From: Patescibacteria group bacterium
GTDB taxonomy: Bacteria; Patescibacteriota; Minisyncoccia; UBA6257; 02-FULL-45-10c
NCBI GenBank assembly: GCA_028865335.1
Contig: JAGWKK010000004.1
Coordinates: forward strand, 1-36,874
Direction: 5' to 3'
DNA: 36,874 bases
Each line of letters begins with the position of its first letter. The stretch's first letter is position 1. Below, piece by piece: positions 11,759 through 22,801 of this stretch. The position numbers and the translations under genes are program-made. Under the pieces are notes generated by a model. The model was not told the DNA's origin. It did no database searches and worked only from the letters and a program-made list of their open reading frames with translations.

Positions 11759-11980
11759 ATGGAAAAGATAATCGGTTTGAAAGAGTTGCGTGAGCGGATG
11801 GGTCATTATACGACTGAAGTAGAGAAAGGCAAGTCGTTTCTCATCGTCCGGAAATCAAGGCCCGTGTTCAGGATCGCTCCCGTGGAGGAAGAATCCGCGT
11901 GGGAGCCGGTCGTTGATTTCACCAAAGTGAAGAATGGCGGCGTATCGGCCCGGGATATCCTGAAAGCGCTCCGGAAGTAA
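11759..11980 (+). CDS. Phd/YefM-type antitoxin
   Basis: GLKELRERMGHYTTEVEKGKSFLIVRKSRPVFRIAPV; immediately upstream of a RelE-like gene. Confidence 0.85.
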   Translation: MEKIIGLKELRERMGHYTTEVEKGKSFLIVRKSRPVFRIAPVEEESAWEPVVDFTKVKNGGVSARDILKALRK

Positions 11981-11983
11981 TTT

Positions 11984-12226
11984 ATGGTACGCCTGAAGAA
12001 ACTGCTTGCCCGCTTCACGCCGAAAGAGCGGGCGGAGATCGGGTCCTTGCTGACAAGGATTCTTTCTTTTGATTGGACCGGTCTGGATGTGAAGCGCTTG
12101 AAGGGATACCGGGAGTATTACCGAATCCGCAAAGGCGATCTGCGGATCGTATATCGGGTTGCGGATCGGGAAGTTTTTGTCCTGACCATCGAACGCCGCT
12201 CGGAAACCACGTATCGCAAACTCTAG
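11984..12226 (+). CDS. RelE/ParE-type toxin
   Basis: LKRLKGYREYYRIRKGDLRIVYRVADREVFVLTIERRSETTYRKL pattern. Confidence 0.85.
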   Translation: MVRLKKLLARFTPKERAEIGSLLTRILSFDWTGLDVKRLKGYREYYRIRKGDLRIVYRVADREVFVLTIERRSETTYRKL

Positions 12227-12886: not shown

Positions 12887-13873
12887 ATGGCAAAACGCAA
12901 AGCGGATAAGAAAATGGTTGTCTATCAGGCGAAATCCGGCGCTATCGAGCTCCGGGGTGATTTGGCGCGCGAAACATTGTGGGCGACTCAGGCTCAGATA
13001 GCCGAAGCGTTTGAAGTTGATGTCCGGACTATAAATGAACATATCCAAAACATTCTCAAAACTAAGGAACTGAGAGAAAAGGCAGCTATCCGGAATTTCC
13101 GGATAGTTCAAAAAGAAGGAACGAGGGAAGTCGATCGAAAAGTGAAGCATTATAACCTCGATATGATTTTATCGGTCGGCTATCGCGTTAACAGCAAGCG
13201 TGCTACGCTTTTCCGCCAATGGGCCACCAGAACCCTGAAGGGCTATATTGTCGACGGCTTCGTGGTGGATAAGCGCCGGATCGCGAAAAACTATGATCGG
13301 TTTCTGGAAGTGGTCAACGATATCCGAAAATTACTTCCCGCGGGGACGTCGGTCAGCCCGAAGGATGCCGTGGAGCTTATCTCGCTTTTTGCGGATACGT
13401 GGTTGTCGCTGGATGCGTATGATCGCGGCGCTTTGCCGAAAGGGAAATTGACCAAAAAGAAAGTTTCTTTGACCGCGGAGGGGATTGCCGGCGGTTTGGG
13501 AAGTCTCAAACAGGAATTGGTGCGCAAAAAAGAGGCGACCGATATGTTCGGCGCCGAGCGCAGCAAGGGATCGGTTGCCGGCATTGTCGGCAATGTGATG
13601 CAGGCATTCGGCGGCAACGATATGTATCCGACGGCGGAGGAGAAGGCGGCGCACCTGCTGTATTTCATGGTGAAGAATCATCCGTTTACCGACGGGAACA
13701 AACGATCGGGCGCTTTTGCGTTCGTCTGGTTCTTGCGCCAGGCGGGAATTTTGGATGTCGCAAAACTCACTCCTTCCGCCCTGACTGCGCTTACCGTCCT
13801 GGTGGCCGAGAGTGAACCGAATCATAAGGATAAAGTGATCAAGCTGATCATGAATCTTATTGCGGAGAAATAA
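12887..13873 (+). CDS. RhuM-like DNA-binding region fused to Fic/Doc domain
   Basis: N-term LWATQAQIAEAFEVDVRTINEHIQNIL...REVDRKVKHYNLDMILSVGYRVNSKRATLFRQWATRTLKGYIVDGF; C-term Fic motif HPFTDGNKRSGAF. Confidence 0.92.
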   Translation: MAKRKADKKMVVYQAKSGAIELRGDLARETLWATQAQIAEAFEVDVRTINEHIQNILKTKELREKAAIRNFRIVQKEGTREVDRKVKHYNLDMILSVGYRVNSKRATLFRQWATRTLKGYIVDGFVVDKRRIAKNYDRFLEVVNDIRKLLPAGTSVSPKDAVELISLFADTWLSLDAYDRGALPKGKLTKKKVSLTAEGIAGGLGSLKQELVRKKEATDMFGAERSKGSVAGIVGNVMQAFGGNDMYPTAEEKAAHLLYFMVKNHPFTDGNKRSGAFAFVWFLRQAGILDVAKLTPSALTALTVLVAESEPNHKDKVIKLIMNLIAEK

Positions 13874-14688: not shown

Positions 14689-14816
14689 ATAAAAACTGAA
14701 TACGAACTACGTCGTCATCGGGAGTTCTCAAGCGTCTATCGCTCCTGATTCATGAAGGGTTGAAATAAGCCCTTACCCAATAATCTGGCGGCGTTTTGTG
14801 TCCAGATTTTTATTTA
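14689..14816 (+). ncRNA. Predicted structured small RNA or leader upstream of the defence-like island
   Basis: Starts at the predicted TSS of the promoter at 14654-14682. Stems ATCGGGAG(14717-14724)/CTCCTGAT(14742-14749), AAGGG/CCCTT, and terminator AATCTGG(14782-14788)/CCAGATT(14802-14808) followed by a T-rich run. No convincing ORF. Confidence 0.45.
14782..14816 (+). terminator. Predicted intrinsic terminator of the small RNA unit
   Basis: AATCTGGcggcgttttgtgtCCAGATTTTTATTT. Confidence 0.65.
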
Positions 14817-14849
14817 TTAAAGGTCGGATAATTAAAGCGAATTACTTTC

Positions 14850-15149
14850 ATGGATAACTATAATTTCGGCAGATCTAAAGAGGTGCTGGTCGCAAATGAC
14901 CTGGTTAGGTGCGGATTTAGAAATGTTCAACTTACCAAAGGCAGTAGGGGACCATTCGATGTTTTTGGAAATTATGAAGATGGGCATTTTATTCTGGTTC
15001 AAGTTAAATCTTCTAGGATTACCTTTGCGGCCGCTAGTGCTAGTGGCGATGACAAAGATAAGTTAATAGCCATCGCTAGACAACATTCTGCGGAGGCCTA
15101 TATAGCCTATGTTGTAGGTGATCAGATTCAGTACGAGAAGGTGGTCTAA
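14850..15149 (+). CDS. Small PD-(D/E)XK (Holliday-resolvase-like) nuclease
   Basis: GRSKEVLVANDLVRCGFRNVQLTKGSRGPFDVFG...FILVQVKSS; D...QVK catalytic pattern. Confidence 0.65.
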   Translation: MDNYNFGRSKEVLVANDLVRCGFRNVQLTKGSRGPFDVFGNYEDGHFILVQVKSSRITFAAASASGDDKDKLIAIARQHSAEAYIAYVVGDQIQYEKVV

Positions 15150-15307
15150 TAAATAGAGGCTTAAAAATTCGGGAGACCCCAGAGAGCCCAGCTTTAGCGA
15201 GATGGACCACCAGAATCCGAATGTCATATTGGGGCATTAAAGCAAAAGCGCTGTGCTAATCCCGAGGCCTTGATAATGGTTAGTTTTGAGGTAGAATTTA
15301 GATAATT

Positions 15308-16543
15308 ATGGCAAACAAGAATCTCACAAATGCAAAACGGGTGAAGAATGACGAGTTCTATACCCAATACAGCGATATCGAGAAAGAGATTGCGGCTTAT
15401 CTGGAATACAACCCAAAGGTATTTCGGGGCAAGGTAGTGTATTGCAACTGCGACGATCCGTACGAGAGCAATTTTTTCCGCTATTTTGTACTCAATTTCA
15501 ATAAGCTTGGGTTGAAACAGCTTATCACCACGAGCTACAAACCCTCGCCCGTAGCCAATACGCAACTGGGATTGTTCGGTAATGACAAGACTCTTACGAA
15601 ATCAAAGGGCCGGCCTAAAATAACCGCCAACAAATTTATCATCAACGAAGTGCATGACATAGACGGCGACGGCGAGTTTAATCTGAAAGATATTGCTGAG
15701 CAATTAAAGGCAAATAAGCACAATGAATGGGCGCCACTGGAAGGCGATGGCGATTTTCGGAGTGATGAATCCATAGATCTACTGAAACAGTCCGACATCG
15801 TCATAACTAATCCGCCATTCAGTCTCTTCCGCGAGTACATAAAACAACTTGTGAAGTATGGTAAAAAGTTTTTGATCATCGGTAACATGAATGCAATCAC
15901 TTACAAAGAAATATTTCCGCTAATAAAAGAAAATAGGATGTGGTTAGGCGCAACCGGGAACGGAGTGGACATGGTTTTTGCTGTCCCAAAGGGTGTAGTA
16001 GTTGATGAAAGATATAAGCAAAAAGCTGCGCGTCTCGGTTATGTCGGCAATTATACAAGGTTAGGAAACTCATGTTGGTTTACTAATATCGACCATGGGC
16101 GTCGTCATCAGCCGCTTGAACAAATGACAATGGCTGAAAATGTACGATTCAATAAGAAATTGAAGGGTAAAACTACATACGAGAAATATGATAATTATGA
16201 CGCGATAGAAGTGCCGTCTGTTGCTGCCATTCCGAGCGATTATAAAGGCGTGATGGGCGTGCCCATTAGTTTTTTGGATAAATACAACCCCGACCAGTTC
16301 AAAATTTTAGGAGCGACTCAAAGAGGTTGCCATGATGAGGTTCCTGACACAAAAAAATATGATGATTACTGGGAAGTAAGACAGAACGGTGAGAAAACAG
16401 GATCGTCTGGTGGAAAAACTAATGAAAATGCCAATTTAGTTGGGAATGATGGGAAAAAGAATTACTTTATAAACAAAGATGGCCGAATAGTTCAATCCGC
16501 CTATCAAAGAATTTTTATTAAGCACAAGAAGGTGACGAAATGA
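15308..16543 (+). CDS. EcoRI-family adenine-specific DNA methyltransferase
   Basis: NDEFYTQYSDIEKEI, YCNCDDPYESNFFRYF, DIVITNPPFSLFREYI (NPPF motif), KFLIIGNMNAITYKEIFPLI, C-term GVMGVPISFLDKYNPDQFKILG. Confidence 0.88.
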   Translation: MANKNLTNAKRVKNDEFYTQYSDIEKEIAAYLEYNPKVFRGKVVYCNCDDPYESNFFRYFVLNFNKLGLKQLITTSYKPSPVANTQLGLFGNDKTLTKSKGRPKITANKFIINEVHDIDGDGEFNLKDIAEQLKANKHNEWAPLEGDGDFRSDESIDLLKQSDIVITNPPFSLFREYIKQLVKYGKKFLIIGNMNAITYKEIFPLIKENRMWLGATGNGVDMVFAVPKGVVVDERYKQKAARLGYVGNYTRLGNSCWFTNIDHGRRHQPLEQMTMAENVRFNKKLKGKTTYEKYDNYDAIEVPSVAAIPSDYKGVMGVPISFLDKYNPDQFKILGATQRGCHDEVPDTKKYDDYWEVRQNGEKTGSSGGKTNENANLVGNDGKKNYFINKDGRIVQSAYQRIFIKHKKVTK

Positions 16544-16568
16544 TAGCAATGATTACTTGATCGCATGT

Positions 16569-18077
16569 ATGAATACGCAAATTAATAGTTTAAAAATAAA
16601 GCAATTTCGCCATTTAAAAGATTTGAACATTGAGTTTGGATCTAGAATTACTGCAATAGCAGGAACCAATGGTACTGGCAAATCCTCTTTACTTGGGTTA
16701 ATAGCTGGGGCATTTGCTTTTGACAAAACGAAAGGACTGACACTATTTAATAAAAAAAGTTTTTCTGCGGATTTTAGCGAAATCTTTACATTCTCTCAAA
16801 AGAAAGAAGGAGAAAAGGTGAATTTATATAAATACGAAATTTCTTTGAGCGATGGACAAAAAGCATTCGGCGGTTTTCGATATTCAGCGAGTGATAAGCG
16901 TAGGCTGTTTAGAATTGATATATCGTCAGGAGATAAAAAAGATAAGAAAAAAATTCAATTTCCAATTATCTATTTAGGGCTAAGGAGATTTTTCCCTTTA
17001 GCACAAGAAACAAATCCAAGAATTAACACAACCAGAAGACAAGATAGTGAATATAGAAACTGGTTTGAGAAATATTATAAAGCTATTTTTCCGACAGAGA
17101 AAATTATTAATTATGAAAATTATAAGTCTGAAAATAAAAACTTTCTCAGTGTTATTACAGATGATTATGACAGCTATGGAAGTTCGGCTGGACAAGATAA
17201 TTTAAGTCAGATATTAAGCGCTATTTATTCTTTTAAAAAATTAAAGGATCAGCTTGGCGATGAATATTTTGGAGGAGCTTTGATTATTGACGAAATTGAT
17301 GTTTCGTTTTATCCCGGTGCTCAAATAAATTTAATTAAATACCTACATCGATTGGCTGGAGAATTTAATTTGCAAATTATTTTTACAACGCATTCTTTAG
17401 AAATATTGGAGTCCCTATCTCACAAAGATTATAAACCGCACTCGAAATATGTTTTTTTAGAAAAAATAAGCGATGACATTATTCTTTATAAGAAAGAAGG
17501 GCAGGATATTGAGAAGATAGTGGCCGATCTAAGACATCGAATAAGAGCTAAGGCTGCAGCCGCTAAAAATAAAAAGATTATGGTTCTTTGTGAGGATGAC
17601 GAAGCGGTATTCGTGGCCAAGGGCATATCAAATTCAAAAATAAAAAAGCAACTTGAGTTTAAAAAAGTAACTTTAGGTTGCGCTAATTATAAACAACTCT
17701 TAGAAAGAGGCATTTTATTTGATAAGCTTGTCGTTCTAGATGGTGACGCTAAAAGTGAAATTGATAATTATAAAAACCTTGTTTTTTTACCCGGCGCTAA
17801 ACGGCCAGAGAATATGATTATGGATTTTTTAGATACCATTCCCGCTACTGATGATTTCTGGAAATCTGAAAATAGGTACACGAAACAGATGTTTTTAGCC
17901 AGAAAGGAGCCGGAAATAAGCGACCGGAAAAAAATGAAAAATTGGTTTAATAGGGAGCGTACGTGTTGGGGGTGGGGCGGCAAAAGGCTATTTGACAATT
18001 GGAAAATTGATAATAAACAAGAATCTGAAAGATTTAATCAGGCAATAGAACAAATCATCACAACAATCAGAAAATAA
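16569..18077 (+). CDS. ABC-type ATPase with C-terminal TOPRIM-like domain (OLD-like)
   Basis: Walker A AGTNGTGKSS, Walker B GGALIIDEIDVSFYP, FTTHSLEILESL H-loop; C-term KIMVLCEDDEAVF ... KLVVLDGDAK ... FLPGAKRPENM. ATG at 16569 preferred within ORF 16557..18077. Confidence 0.75.
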   Translation: MNTQINSLKIKQFRHLKDLNIEFGSRITAIAGTNGTGKSSLLGLIAGAFAFDKTKGLTLFNKKSFSADFSEIFTFSQKKEGEKVNLYKYEISLSDGQKAFGGFRYSASDKRRLFRIDISSGDKKDKKKIQFPIIYLGLRRFFPLAQETNPRINTTRRQDSEYRNWFEKYYKAIFPTEKIINYENYKSENKNFLSVITDDYDSYGSSAGQDNLSQILSAIYSFKKLKDQLGDEYFGGALIIDEIDVSFYPGAQINLIKYLHRLAGEFNLQIIFTTHSLEILESLSHKDYKPHSKYVFLEKISDDIILYKKEGQDIEKIVADLRHRIRAKAAAAKNKKIMVLCEDDEAVFVAKGISNSKIKKQLEFKKVTLGCANYKQLLERGILFDKLVVLDGDAKSEIDNYKNLVFLPGAKRPENMIMDFLDTIPATDDFWKSENRYTKQMFLARKEPEISDRKKMKNWFNRERTCWGWGGKRLFDNWKIDNKQESERFNQAIEQIITTIRK

Positions 18078-18103
18078 TTATATAGAGCCCAAAAAATAAT
18101 TCT

Positions 18104-19267
18104 ATGAAAACAACTCTAAAGACCGACATCACCGTTAATGATATTTGCGAAGGGTTCGTCTATAACGAACTCGAAGGCAAGGGCTTGTTCGGTTTGTCCG
18201 GCAAGCTCACTATCCAGCCGGAGTATCAGCGCAATTATATTTATGCCGAAGAAGGAAAGGAGGCCGCTGTAATTACCTCAATTCTTAAGGGCTACCCTCT
18301 TGGATTGATCTATTTCCATAAGCCAAGTAAAGATAAATTTGAAGTTTTAGATGGCCAACAGCGAATCACCAGTATAGGACGGTTTGTAACTGATAAATTT
18401 GCTATCGTAGACGAAAATGGTTTGCAGCAGAATTTTAGCGGTATGGCAAAAGATAAGAAGGCCAAGATTTGGGAGACAAAATTGCTCATTTACGAATGTG
18501 AAGGAGAAGAAAGCGAAATAAAAGATTGGTTCAAAACAATTAATATTGCCGGGATTCCGCTTAGGAATCAAGAGCTGCTTAATGCCGTGTACTCCGGACC
18601 ATTTGTGACGCTGGCAAGAGAGGAATTTAGCAATCGCCAAAACGCCAATATCCAGAAATGGGGTGCTTATATAGCGGGTAGTGTAAATCGACAAGATTTT
18701 TTGGAACGAGCGTTGGAATGGGTAAGCCGTGGAAATGTTGAGGGTTATATGACAAGTCGCCGCAAAGAAAAAAATATCACGGAGTTGAAAAAATATTTCA
18801 ACAGCGTCATTGACTGGGTGTCCGGCGTATTTACCGATGTGGAAAGCGAGATGCGCGGATTGGAATGGGGACGGCTGTACGAAGAATACCACAAGAAATC
18901 CTATAATCCCGCCAAAGTATCTGCCGAGGTGCATAAGCTCTATGGCGATCCGTATATCAAAAATCGCAGGGGCATTTTTGAATATATTCTTGGCGGTTCC
19001 GTTGACACAAAATTGCTTGAGGTCCGGGTTTTTGATGATGCGACGAAAAAATCCGTGTATGCGACACAGACTGCGAAAGCGGAGAAAAAAGGCGAATCAA
19101 ACTGCCCGCTTTGCGCGATCGGGCGTGACGTCAATAAGACTAAGATGTGGAAATTGACTGAAATGGATGCTGATCATGTAACGGCGTGGAGCAAGGGCGG
19201 CGCGACTTCTGCCAAAAATTGCCAAATGCTGTGCAAGACGCATAATCGCGCAAAGGGAAATCGATAA
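18104..19267 (+). CDS. DUF262 (ParB-like) protein with C-terminal HNH endonuclease
   Basis: [28 protein letters not shown]-term CPLC...[34 protein letters not shown]. Confidence 0.92.
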
Positions 19268-19307
19268 TCTCCAGAATTTTGCTTTCTAAGAAAGAAATTT
19301 TGAATTT

Positions 19308-19652
19308 ATGAGTAATTTTGAAAAGAATTTGGAGGAAGCATCTGAGCAGGAGCTATATCGTTGGGTCAATTTGCGGGACTTCCGAGTTGTTCCACTTGCA
19401 TCAGATGAATTAACTAGGCGCAGGCTATCTGAGTTGAAAAACTCTATAAAAAATTTAGATGAGGGAACGCGGAGGTATTCTCGAGCGCTTATTTTCCTGA
19501 CTATTGTTTTGGCCCTAATTGGCATAATGCAATTAGTAGCCACCTTATTCATGCCGGATACCTTACTTGGGAAAATTGTTTTTGGTCTAACGATATCAGG
19601 AGGATTTATTATGTTGTTTAACCGTATTGAAGGAAATTTCAAAGATTTTTAA
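19308..19652 (+). CDS. Small protein with two predicted TM helices
   Basis: ALIFLTIVLALIGIMQLVATLF and GKIVFGLTISGGFIMLF; charged coiled-coil N-terminus. Confidence 0.75.
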   Translation: MSNFEKNLEEASEQELYRWVNLRDFRVVPLASDELTRRRLSELKNSIKNLDEGTRRYSRALIFLTIVLALIGIMQLVATLFMPDTLLGKIVFGLTISGGFIMLFNRIEGNFKDF

Positions 19653-19669
19653 CTTCCAAAATCAATATG

Positions 19670-19699
19670 CCGAGTGCTATACCATGGTATAGCACTCGG
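19670..19699. repeat. 30-bp perfect palindrome CCGAGTGCTATACCATGGTATAGCACTCGG
   Basis: Exact reverse-complement symmetry, no spacer, no following T tract. Confidence 0.95.
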
Positions 19700-19703
19700 T
19701 CGC

Positions 19704-19802
19704 ATCTGTATCGAAGTCGGACCTCGCGAGAAAACCCTTGCGAGTTCATTCTAAAACCCCTATAATCCAACCAGTTGTTCGAGTGGCGAATAAGGAGGGG
19801 TC
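19704..19802 (+). promoter_or_regulatory. Leader module copy 1: operator-like dyad, promoter, SD
   Basis: ATCTGTATCGAAGTCGGACCTCG..., TTGCGA(19738)-17-TATAAT(19761), ATCCAACCAGTT, AGGAGG before ATG 19803. Confidence 0.8.
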
Positions 19803-20207
19803 ATGTACCGGATCGTCTATGTCGGAAGCATCCGCTTTGTGCTGGTGAAGGACGAGGAGAGGTCCGAGTGGTATCTGTTCGACGCTTTTGAGGTGGGATC
19901 GTTTGAGTCCTGGTATAAGGAATACGAATTCTACCGCCAGATTTCCGCGCGGAAAGAAGCGGGAGAAAAGCTTTTCAAGAAGGTGGAGCCCACGAATGAA
20001 CTTCTGCATCGGGTGCTCTCGCGGCTGTACCATGACGGACTCTATCTCTGTCCGCAGACATCCTTCGCATCACTCGAAGATGTCTGGAAGTGGTGCTGGA
20101 AGAGCCTGAATCCGTGGGGTAAGGAGCGGAGGCCGGCGCCGAACAAGAACGTCGGCGAAGTCACCGAATCGGATCTCGCGTGGATCCTCCAGCAGTTCGG
20201 GAGATAG
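19803..20207 (+). CDS. Hypothetical protein (cassette 1)
   Basis: 134-aa ORF with strong SD and promoter; no family recognised. Confidence 0.8.
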   Translation: MYRIVYVGSIRFVLVKDEERSEWYLFDAFEVGSFESWYKEYEFYRQISARKEAGEKLFKKVEPTNELLHRVLSRLYHDGLYLCPQTSFASLEDVWKWCWKSLNPWGKERRPAPNKNVGEVTESDLAWILQQFGR

Positions 20208-20215
20208 CGTATCCA

Positions 20216-20243
20216 CATCAGTCCTTCAGGACTGATTTTTTAT
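20216..20243 (+). terminator. Intrinsic terminator of cassette 1
   Basis: CAGTCCTTCAGGACTGATTTTTTAT. Confidence 0.85.
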
Positions 20244-20246
20244 TTC

Positions 20247-20283
20247 TTTACTTCTCTAATTCGCGCGAATGGTAGAATAGTTT
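20247..20283. repeat. Trailer repeat copy 1
   Basis: TTTACTTCTCTAATTCGCGCGAATGGTAGAATAGTTT; core palindrome ATTCGCGCGAAT. Confidence 0.9.
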
Positions 20284-20287
20284 CCGG

Positions 20288-20386
20288 ATCTGTATCGAGG
20301 TCGGACCTCGATATAAAACCCTTGCCTCCCTCGCTTAAAGCATTTATAATCCAACCAGTTATTCAAGAAGCGGATAGGAGGCGGAA
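20288..20386 (+). promoter_or_regulatory. Leader module copy 2: 21-nt dyad, promoter, SD
   Basis: ATCTGTATCGAGGTCGGACCTCGATA..., TTGCCT(20322)-17-TATAAT(20345), ATCCAACCAGTT, GGAGG before ATG 20387. Confidence 0.85.
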
Positions 20387-21166
20387 ATGAAGAAGTGGGG
20401 CACGGTCACGACAGCGCAGGAGCAGGGACCGCGAAGTCATCAGGAGGATCGGTTCGATGAGATTCTCGTCGGAATCGACGGCGATCCGTACGGATGCTTG
20501 CTGGTGGTGATGGACGGGCATAGCGGCTTCGAGGCGGTGGATCTGTGCGCGAAGGAGCTGCAGAACCTTTTCGTCCCGCGGCCCTTCGACGAAGGCGAGG
20601 AATCGCTCCGCGACCTGGTCGGGAAGCTGGATAGGCTTACCAGATCGTGTGAGAGCGGTACGACATTCTCCGCGGCTCTGATCATGCGTAGCGAAACGCG
20701 CAAGATGTGCCGTGCGACGATCGCGATTCTGGGTGATTCGCCGGTGATGGTGGTCCGCAAGCTGAATCGGGTGTGGCTGAGCCCTGAGCATAATGTCCGA
20801 TCCAACCTGGCCGAGCGCGAAGCGGCGATCCGGCGCGGCGGATTTTGCGAGAATGGCTACCTCTTTCAGGAGCGGAGCGATCTCGCGAATGGGCTGCAGA
20901 TGAGTCGGGCGCTCGGAGACAGGGAGCTTTCGCATGTTCTTTGCCGCGAACCCGAGATCTTCACGATTGACGATCCGCAATGGGTGCTTGTGGCTTCGGA
21001 CGGCATCTCCGACCCGAATCACGAGGAAGCCGGTTTTCCTTTCGTGAAAATGGGCAGCCGCTGGAATCGGGATTGCGCCACAGCCGAACGGGTGATGAAG
21101 TGGAGAGTGCGACGGGGCCTGCGCGATAACGCTACCGCGGTCGTGTGGAACGCACCGAATAAGTAA
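20387..21166 (+). CDS. PP2C/PPM-family Ser/Thr protein phosphatase (cassette 2)
   Basis: GPRSHQEDRFDE, LLVVMDGHSG, GTTFSAALI, WVLVASDGISD, RDNATAVVW. Confidence 0.92.
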   Translation: MKKWGTVTTAQEQGPRSHQEDRFDEILVGIDGDPYGCLLVVMDGHSGFEAVDLCAKELQNLFVPRPFDEGEESLRDLVGKLDRLTRSCESGTTFSAALIMRSETRKMCRATIAILGDSPVMVVRKLNRVWLSPEHNVRSNLAEREAAIRRGGFCENGYLFQERSDLANGLQMSRALGDRELSHVLCREPEIFTIDDPQWVLVASDGISDPNHEEAGFPFVKMGSRWNRDCATAERVMKWRVRRGLRDNATAVVWNAPNK

Positions 21167-21169
21167 GTA

Positions 21170-21196
21170 ATCAGTCCTCCGGGGCTGATTTTTTAT
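21170..21196 (+). terminator. Intrinsic terminator of cassette 2
   Basis: CAGTCCTCCGGGGCTGATTTTTTAT (one G-U pair). Confidence 0.8.
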
Positions 21197-21199
21197 CCG

Positions 21200-21236
21200 T
21201 TTACTTCTCTAATTCGCGCGAATAGTAGAATAGTTT
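21200..21236. repeat. Trailer repeat copy 2
   Basis: TTTACTTCTCTAATTCGCGCGAATAGTAGAATAGTTT. Confidence 0.9.
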
Positions 21237-21262
21237 GCGGATATGTGGTAGGATCGTGGTGT

Positions 21263-21523
21263 ATGAAAAATCTTGAGAAAACACTGAAGGCGCTTGCGAA
21301 TCGGCGGCGACTTGCCATTCTCGCATATCTGAAGACGCATAAGGAGGCGTCGGTCACCGACATCGCCCACGCGATTCATCTGTCATTCAAAGCGACATCC
21401 AAGCATCTCGGTATTCTCGCCTCGCTCGATATCATCGACCGCGAGCAGCGGAGCCTGCAGATGTTCTACCGCCTCGCCAACTCCCAACCCTCCCCGGTCA
21501 AATCCATCCTTTTACTTCTCTAA
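21263..21523 (+). CDS. ArsR-like winged-helix regulator, C-terminus formed by repeat
   Basis: LEKTLKALANRRRLAILAYLKTHKEASVTDIAHAIHLSFKATSKHLGILASLDIIDREQRS; ORF 21245..21523. Confidence 0.85.
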   Translation: MKNLEKTLKALANRRRLAILAYLKTHKEASVTDIAHAIHLSFKATSKHLGILASLDIIDREQRSLQMFYRLANSQPSPVKSILLLL

Positions 21524-21534
21524 TTCGCGCGAAT
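21511..21534. repeat. Trailer repeat copy 3 (partial)
   Basis: TTTACTTCTCTAATTCGCGCGAAT, followed by AGGCGAATAAGGA, which resembles the leader tail. Confidence 0.9.
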
Positions 21535-21601
21535 AGGCGAATAAGGAAAATTTCAAAAATCCGTAGACGCAACCGCGGATTTTTTCTATACTGGAGGTAT
21601 T

Positions 21602-22801
21602 ATGGCATCGGGAATCAATCAGCCGCTCGCGGAACGGGTGCGGCCGGAAAAACTTTCGGAGGTGATCGGGCAGGAGCAGGTGACGGGGCCGGGGAAGCTG
21701 CTCGCCGAAATGGTGCGCACGAATTCGCCGGTGAGTCTGATCCTGTGGGGACCGCCGGGGAGCGGGAAGACGACGCTCGCCCGCGTGTTCGCGCATGAAC
21801 TGAAGGCCGAATTCACGGAAATGTCCGCGGTCATGGCTGGTGTCGCCGATATCCGGAAAGTGATCGAACTAGCGCAGATGAACAAGCGGTTCGGAAAGCC
21901 GACGATCGTGTTCATCGATGAGATCCACCGGTTCAACAAAGCCCAGCAGGATTCGTTGCTTCCGCACGTGGAGAGCGGACTGATCACGCTGGTGGGCGCG
22001 ACGACGGAGAACCCGAGCTTCTCGGTGATCTCGCCGCTGCTCAGCCGCAGCCGCGTGGTGGTGCTGAATCAGCTTTCGGATGAAGCGGTGCGGGAGATCG
22101 TCCTGCGCGCGCTGACGAAAATCGGCCGCGGCGAGGATGCGCTGGCGCCTGGTGCGCTGGAATTTCTCGTCCATGCCGCCGGCGGTGATGCGCGTGTGGC
22201 GCTGGGGACGCTGGATGTGGCGATGCTGTTTTCGGATGGAGGACCACTGACGGAAACCGAACTGGAAACGGCACTGGGACGGAAAGTCGGCCGGCATGAC
22301 CGGAAAGGCGAGAGCCACTACAACCTCGCGAGCGCGTTCATCAAATCCCTCCGCGGAAGCGACGAGAGCGCCGCTCTCTATTATCTCGCGCGGTTCCTGA
22401 AGATGGGTGAGGATCCGCTTTTTATCGCGCGCCGGATGGTGATCTTCGCGTCGGAAGATATCGGACTCGCGGACAAGTACGCGACCCTGCTTGCCGAGAG
22501 CGTCTTGGAGGAAACCAAGAACGTCGGCATGCCGGAGTGCCAGTACGCGCTGTTCCACGCGGCGCTGTATCTCGTGCGCGCGAAAAAAGACCGCACGGTT
22601 GCTGATGCGATGTCCTCGGCGCTGAAGAAAGCCGAAGAAACGCCGGATCTGCAGGTGCCGCTCCATATCCGGAACGCGGTGACCGACCTCATGAAAGAGC
22701 TTGAATACGGCAAGGGATATAAATGGAAGGCGGGATTCAAGCACGAAAAAGGTTTTTTGCCGGAGGAGATCGAGGATTGGAAAGTTTTGGATGAAGAATA
22801 G
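21602..22801 (+). CDS. rarA: Replication-associated recombination protein A (RarA/MgsA), AAA+ ATPase
   Basis: PLAERVRPEKLSEVIGQEQV, LILWGPPGSGKTTLARVFA, IVFIDEIHRFNKAQQDSLLPHVE, GATTENPSFSV. Confidence 0.95.
   Translation: MASGINQPLAERVRPEKLSEVIGQEQVTGPGKLLAEMVRTNSPVSLILWGPPGSGKTTLARVFAHELKAEFTEMSAVMAGVADIRKVIELAQMNKRFGKPTIVFIDEIHRFNKAQQDSLLPHVESGLITLVGATTENPSFSVISPLLSRSRVVVLNQLSDEAVREIVLRALTKIGRGEDALAPGALEFLVHAAGGDARVALGTLDVAMLFSDGGPLTETELETALGRKVGRHDRKGESHYNLASAFIKSLRGSDESAALYYLARFLKMGEDPLFIARRMVIFASEDIGLADKYATLLAESVLEETKNVGMPECQYALFHAALYLVRAKKDRTVADAMSSALKKAEETPDLQVPLHIRNAVTDLMKELEYGKGYKWKAGFKHEKGFLPEEIEDWKVLDEE

Follow-up and report, generated by a model that had tools for sequence, protein, structure and literature searches.

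Xer sites have an 11-6-11 format and are acted on by XerC/D, and such sites underlie one of several described arrangements in which short sequences with dyad symmetry stand between or within bacterial genes. In the dif (pdif) modules of Acinetobacter plasmids, short dyad sites are found between independently expressed genes, in an Xer-dependent system (PMC6449649); in integrons, gene cassettes likewise follow one another, every boundary being marked by a repeated element. The Rickettsia palindromic elements, ~150 bp long, are dispersed and occur in frame in protein-coding genes (reviewed in PMC10969869), and ArsR/SmtB proteins, among them the repressor AzuR, bind 12-2-12 inverted repeats located upstream of or within genes (PMC8790569).

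The locus considered here belongs to a contig of a Patescibacteria group bacterium (JAGWKK010000004.1; the 36,874 nucleotides analyzed are hereafter the window) and resembles each of these systems in part. It consists of two adjacent units, each having its own promoter and terminator, with a palindrome (hereafter S) after each of them, followed by a gene for an ArsR/SmtB-like protein. Short sites with dyad symmetry separate genes that are expressed independently, as in the pdif modules, from which the locus differs in that S is also found inside coding genes and that whole leaders and terminators are duplicated; the consecutive units with a repeated boundary element recall integron cassettes, but each unit carries a promoter and a terminator of its own, no integrase is seen in the window and the attC core GTTRRRY is absent, by reading, from S and its flanks. 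S is palindromic, dispersed and in frame in protein-coding genes like the Rickettsia elements, yet it is much shorter (~30 bp), is linked to an ArsR-like gene and belongs to different bacteria. With the ArsR/SmtB repressors the locus has in common an 86-aa winged-helix protein and a 12-2-12-type dyad covering in many loci the −35 of the protein's own promoter; unlike those systems, the protein is cysteine-free, the sites lie at both gene ends and inside coding genes, and the binding is predicted. The explanation that we consider somewhat better than evenly probable, as judged from comparative sequence data, is that a single tandem duplication followed by ORF replacement produced the twin units, and that S is the probable operator of the neighboring ArsR-like repressor, having also been inserted elsewhere.

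Organization of the twin units

An initial annotation had described two directly abutting cassettes, each with 99 bp from an ATCTG motif to the ATG, a promoter with 17-bp spacing and an SD, and each ending in a terminator and a trailer. All the sequence strings that it quoted are present in the window, and the 99-bp distance (19704 → 19803 and 20288 → 20387), the spacing and the SD are indeed found in both units (Table 1), the equal length of the leaders being the net result of small compensating indels. The leaders share 79 identities over 106 columns (75%, gapped) with a score of 48, the maximum in 500 shuffles being 2; the terminators, which fold at −11.1 (unit 1) and −14.5 kcal/mol (unit 2) with z values of −4.9 and −4.5, form together with S a 77-nt direct repeat having 88% identity between the units. 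The flank homology is genuine and beyond chance. Beyond S, the register of the repeat runs ~12 bp further into AGTTTnCGGATnTGT, common to the start of the region upstream of the ArsR-like gene, and a starting register CGnATnTGT is shared by unit 1, unit 2 and this same upstream region, so that the units not only abut directly but do so in a common register. The view that both units end in a terminator and a trailer holds for the homologous terminators, which are followed by S, but not for S as a component of the units, further copies being present elsewhere; since S stands after a complete terminator, it is an intergenic element between the units and not part of the transcript end. The twin units would constitute two independent single-gene transcription units, each comprising a dyad, a sigma-70 promoter, an SD, an ORF and an intrinsic terminator.

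Table 1. Features of the twin-unit locus and of its surroundings (positions in the window)
Feature	Position	Strand	Remarks
Phd/YefM-like antitoxin, then ParE-like toxin ORF	11759..12226		
RhuM-family protein with Fic domain	12887..13873		
Low-GC island	14800..19652		~34–44% GC (genome 56%); ends just before leader 1
Perfect 30-bp palindrome CCGAGTGCTATACCATGGTATAGCACTCGG	19670..19699	none	just 5′ of leader 1; single copy in window; fold −23.8 kcal/mol
Leader 1: imperfect dyad TATCGAAGTCGGACCTCG, promoter TTGCGA-17-TATAAT, SD, to ATG	19701..19802	+	promoter at 19738–19766, 10/12
ORF, 134 aa, family unassigned	19803..20207	+	native-like codon use
Intrinsic terminator 1	20217..20241	+	sequence and fold
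S copy 1, palindrome between unit 1 and leader 2	20249..20279	none	
Leader 2: perfect dyad TATCGAGGTC-G-GACCTCGATA, promoter TTGCCT-17-TATAAT, SD	20285..20386	+	promoter at 20322–20350, 10/12
PP2C-type protein phosphatase, 259 aa	20387..21166	+	Pfam PF00481, PDB PPM1K, motifs
Intrinsic terminator 2	21169..21194	+	sequence and fold
S copy 2, 5′ of ArsR-like gene	21202..21232	none	
ArsR/SmtB-like winged-helix regulator, 86 aa	21263..21523	+	NCBIfam NF033788
S copy 3, contains stop codon of ArsR-like gene	21513..21543	none	
rarA/mgsA AAA+ ATPase	21602..22801	+	syntenic anchor in comparison of relatives

The two ORFs enclosed by these flanks are unrelated, as had been claimed: they display no protein similarity, and their local score as DNA is 23, shuffles giving a mean of 20.9 and a maximum of 29. 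Homologous flanks might suggest diverged paralogues of a duplicated gene, an alternative that the initial annotation had itself named; this origin is extremely improbable and was rejected on account of the absent protein and DNA similarity, the 134-aa ORF moreover matching nothing and the 259-aa ORF being a clear PP2C. The PP2C ORF was identified by Pfam (PF00481, 1e-13), by PDB (PPM1K, 1e-8) and by the motifs VMDGH, SGTT, GDS, ASDG and DNAT in its sequence. No match was found for the 134-aa ORF in Pfam, NCBIfam, PHROGs or PADLOC, and no relative among the 245 genomes of the order or in a scan of the GTDB species genomes, while its structure model (pLDDT 55) is too weak for a structure search. 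It uses codons as a real native gene does; indeed, the composition (GC3 0.73) and the codon use of both ORFs are native and set them apart from the low-GC restriction-modification island lying just 5′.

Distribution of the leader and origin of the twin units

A search of the genome for leader and trailer copies, as had been proposed, yielded two leaders, both in the window, and four copies of S. In the order (244 related genomes searched) the window pair provided the only exact leader matches and no copy was closer than three mismatches, at which level there was a single match in each of ten other genomes, compared with two matches for the reversed control pattern; the GTDB species genomes contained no exact match. 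The relatives of the PP2C, found in six genomes (five at 41–49% identity, one at 29%), are accompanied by neither leader nor S. Because there are two copies only and the PP2C relatives are without it, the leader can be assigned, by sequence comparison, to the twin-unit locus and neither to PP2C nor to ordinary promoters, the alternative of a common promoter being ruled out by the two-copy count and by the lack of close copies in the relatives. The idea of ORFs being swapped between conserved expression flanks as a general system is not supported by the same data, in that further leader copies are absent and the PP2C relatives have neither leader nor S; of the cassette interpretation there survive the homologous non-coding flanks around unrelated ORFs, but not a wider swapping system.

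The twin units are most likely the product of one local event and not members of a cassette family. In a first step, a unit extending from the leader through the terminator to S would have undergone one local tandem duplication; in a second step, the ORF between the copied flanks would have been replaced in one of the copies, via recombination within those flanks. We infer this succession from the observed flank homology, common register, unrelated ORFs and locus-unique leader; no genome was found with an ancestral single unit, a donor of either ORF or an intermediate. A former operon (leader-ORF1-ORF2-terminator-S), tandemly duplicated and then deprived of complementary ORFs, would, by two simple steps based on the repeats that are seen, yield exactly the present layout, but it is an improbable origin, given that no relative has the two ORFs adjacent, that the 134-aa ORF is without homologue and that the PP2C loci of the six other genomes do not contain it.

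Anatomy and distribution of the S palindrome

The presumed trailer turns out to be a palindromic element found across the order; it is tied to the adjacent ArsR-like gene and is present also inside coding genes. Its core CTAATTCGCGCGAAT occurs without mismatch at exactly four places of the 860-kb genome: in the window there are three copies, 953 and 311 bp apart, and the remaining one is within mnmA on contig C8; a profile built as a sequence model of the element detects S in 80 of the 245 genomes of the order and in four places of the genome under study, and finds none in the sister genome. The anatomy of S was derived from 86 distinct copies with an ATTCG-NN-CGAAT core, this core being fixed by the selection of the copies. 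The half-site is TATTCnCYnATTCGy, whose outer box TATTC and CY step are conserved independently of that selection; the whole is a symmetric 14-2-14 palindrome with a variable central dinucleotide, and conservation stops at ~30 bp. Complementarity of the arms is about that of shuffled pairings at most positions, a clear excess being seen at two (position 4, 0.53 vs 0.36; position 5, 0.81 vs 0.61). Because of this near-shuffled complementarity, sequence-specific protein binding is favored over selection for a hairpin, and the conservation of S, from the aligned copies, looks mostly like that seen at symmetric sites bound by proteins, the palindrome having been perfected to some extent.

Two further observations concern the placement of S. 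In L042, L043, L052, L056 and L088 it lies ~5–25 bp from the start codon of large zinc-ribbon-like genes, often in tandem, and in L075, L077, L079, L083, L089 and L107 a second repeat, of GCCTGCC type, splits some copies at the center.

The ArsR-like regulator and its link to S

The 86-aa regulator scores 65.3 bits with NCBIfam NF033788 (cut-off 55), above the curated family threshold; it contains no cysteine and therefore has no cysteine-based metal site. Strong homologues (protein-profile search, E up to 1e-20) exist in 35 genomes, and S is present in 35/35 of these as opposed to 45/210 of the others (Fisher p 2e-20, a value overstated by the relatedness of the genomes by descent). Where flanks of the ArsR-like genes were fetched (30 loci, including loci used in defining S), S is upstream in 25/30 and downstream in 25/30. 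In 10 of the 25 loci with an upstream copy the best −10 begins 28–32 bp after the center of S, which places S over the −35 region; in the window, a candidate −10 (TAGGAT, 21249–21254), selected by reading, the automated pick being a different hexamer, is located 31 bp past the center of S copy 2. S has the properties of a 12-2-12-type inverted repeat at the regulator's own promoter, being 14-2-14, upstream of 25/30 of the genes and often over the −35; such a symmetric site is what an ArsR operator would be expected to look like. S copy 1, on the other hand, need not control PP2C since it is ~57 bp upstream of the −35 of this gene. A search of the literature for ArsR in combination with palindromes and with the Candidate Phyla Radiation or Patescibacteria gave no relevant result.

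The observed motif, co-occurrence and flanking position make S most likely a binding site of the ArsR/SmtB-like product of the adjacent gene, and S copy 2 the site at which this protein would repress its own promoter; the observed insertion pattern indicates that S also comes to be inserted at other places, in-frame positions within coding genes among them. An operator function alone leaves unexplained the 13 genomes that have strong S copies and in which no ArsR-like homologue was detected, and the coding loops that harbor S are unusual operator positions.

S within coding genes

MnmA sequences of 19 genomes were aligned. A SLIRAN-type peptide, encoded by S, occupies one and the same loop in the genome under study (G000) and in G006, G179, G233 and G040, representing five genera; in G018 S occupies the same loop in another frame and in G099 a different loop, while in the sister genome (G001) S is absent and the loop is shorter. 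The mnmA gene with this in-frame S is located at L001:1234-2517. S is also found in ORFs resembling uvrC, fmt, nifS, murD-like and ychF-like genes; the identities of MnmA and Fmt were confirmed against PDB and the others were named by reading the sequence. How large the insertion is was settled by comparing relatives, the PDB alignments of MnmA and Fmt having given no decision on this point. The in-frame presence in coding genes combined with absence in relatives, documented for mnmA in the 19 genomes, is the behavior of a Rickettsia-type element, the length of ~150 bp excepted, and S looks, judging from these alignments, to be an insertable element in addition to having a site-like symmetry. 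The shared position in the MnmA loop may reflect repeated insertion, gene conversion between S copies or transfer of mnmA.

These data also bear on the possibility of a mainly selfish S, a palindromic insertion element similar to those of Rickettsia, the ArsR-like gene being cargo or passenger and S having no regulatory role. The insertions in mnmA and in the other ORFs named above speak for it, as do the copies identical within one genome but different between genomes (L162, L165) and the 13 genomes with S and without ArsR-like homologue; the near-universal flanking of the ArsR-like gene, the position of S over its −35, the strong co-occurrence and the shortness of S weigh in the opposite direction, leaving this a possible but somewhat unlikely explanation.

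History and neighborhood of the locus

The low-GC island that precedes unit 1 encodes an EcoRI-type adenine methylase (PF13651, 1e-125), an AAA ATPase like PtuA-type proteins, a GmrSD/HNH nuclease and a small membrane protein, and is likely a recently acquired defense island; neither leader nor S is found at its left end. Because of their native composition, units 1 and 2 are probably older residents than the island.

Comparison with relatives is anchored on rarA. In G006 the gene order is PIF1-like helicase, S, exonuclease, S, ArsR-like gene, S, rarA, whereas in the sister genome and in G002 the position before rarA has neither S nor an ArsR-like gene and is occupied, by reading, by a LexA-like gene (L105, L106). 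The slot defined by S-gene-S before the ArsR-like gene and rarA thus contains the exonuclease gene in G006 and PP2C in the window, in which ~16.6 kb, including the low-GC island, separate the exonuclease from the ArsR-like gene.

The different occupants of this slot could mean that S serves as a site of site-specific recombination and that the genes it encloses move as cassettes, in the manner of pdif modules or integrons. Runs of S with intervening genes are found in several genomes, with the two intervals given above for the window and five copies within 5 kb in G040:C24, and a palindrome with a variable central dinucleotide would suit such a function; S can be written as 11-6-11, but its most conserved bases reach into the center. 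Nevertheless, unit 1 is not preceded by an S copy, the duplication of leader and terminator is not accounted for by a recombinase that acts at S, the annotated genes of the window include no recombinase and S copies stand inside coding loops. Serine recombinases in particular, rejected as drivers of S, show no association with it, being found in 11/18 S-rich and 12/18 S-free genomes, so that 7 of the 18 S-rich genomes have none. Recombination at S is accordingly to be regarded as a doubtful account of the locus, and the duplication with ORF replacement remains the preferred one.

Conclusions

The new part of these results is the candidate S/ArsR-like module, which is more general than the twin units. 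A bolder proposal, which we advance tentatively and consider rather unlikely, is that S and its ArsR-like partner would form an undescribed two-part module of small-genome bacteria, consisting of a spreading palindrome and a dedicated DNA-binding protein, in which S copies would act as boundaries for gene gain or exchange, as in the twin units, with spreading in frame into tRNA-modification and repair genes.

The twin units, for their part, indicate that promoter and terminator can persist through a change of gene content, here in a genome that is small and reduced. Of wider interest is S, since through it a family of regulators is connected, throughout an order, with a dispersed element whose sequence is defined, and the S/ArsR-like pair bears on the question of whether the operator of a transcription factor can also spread into coding sequence.
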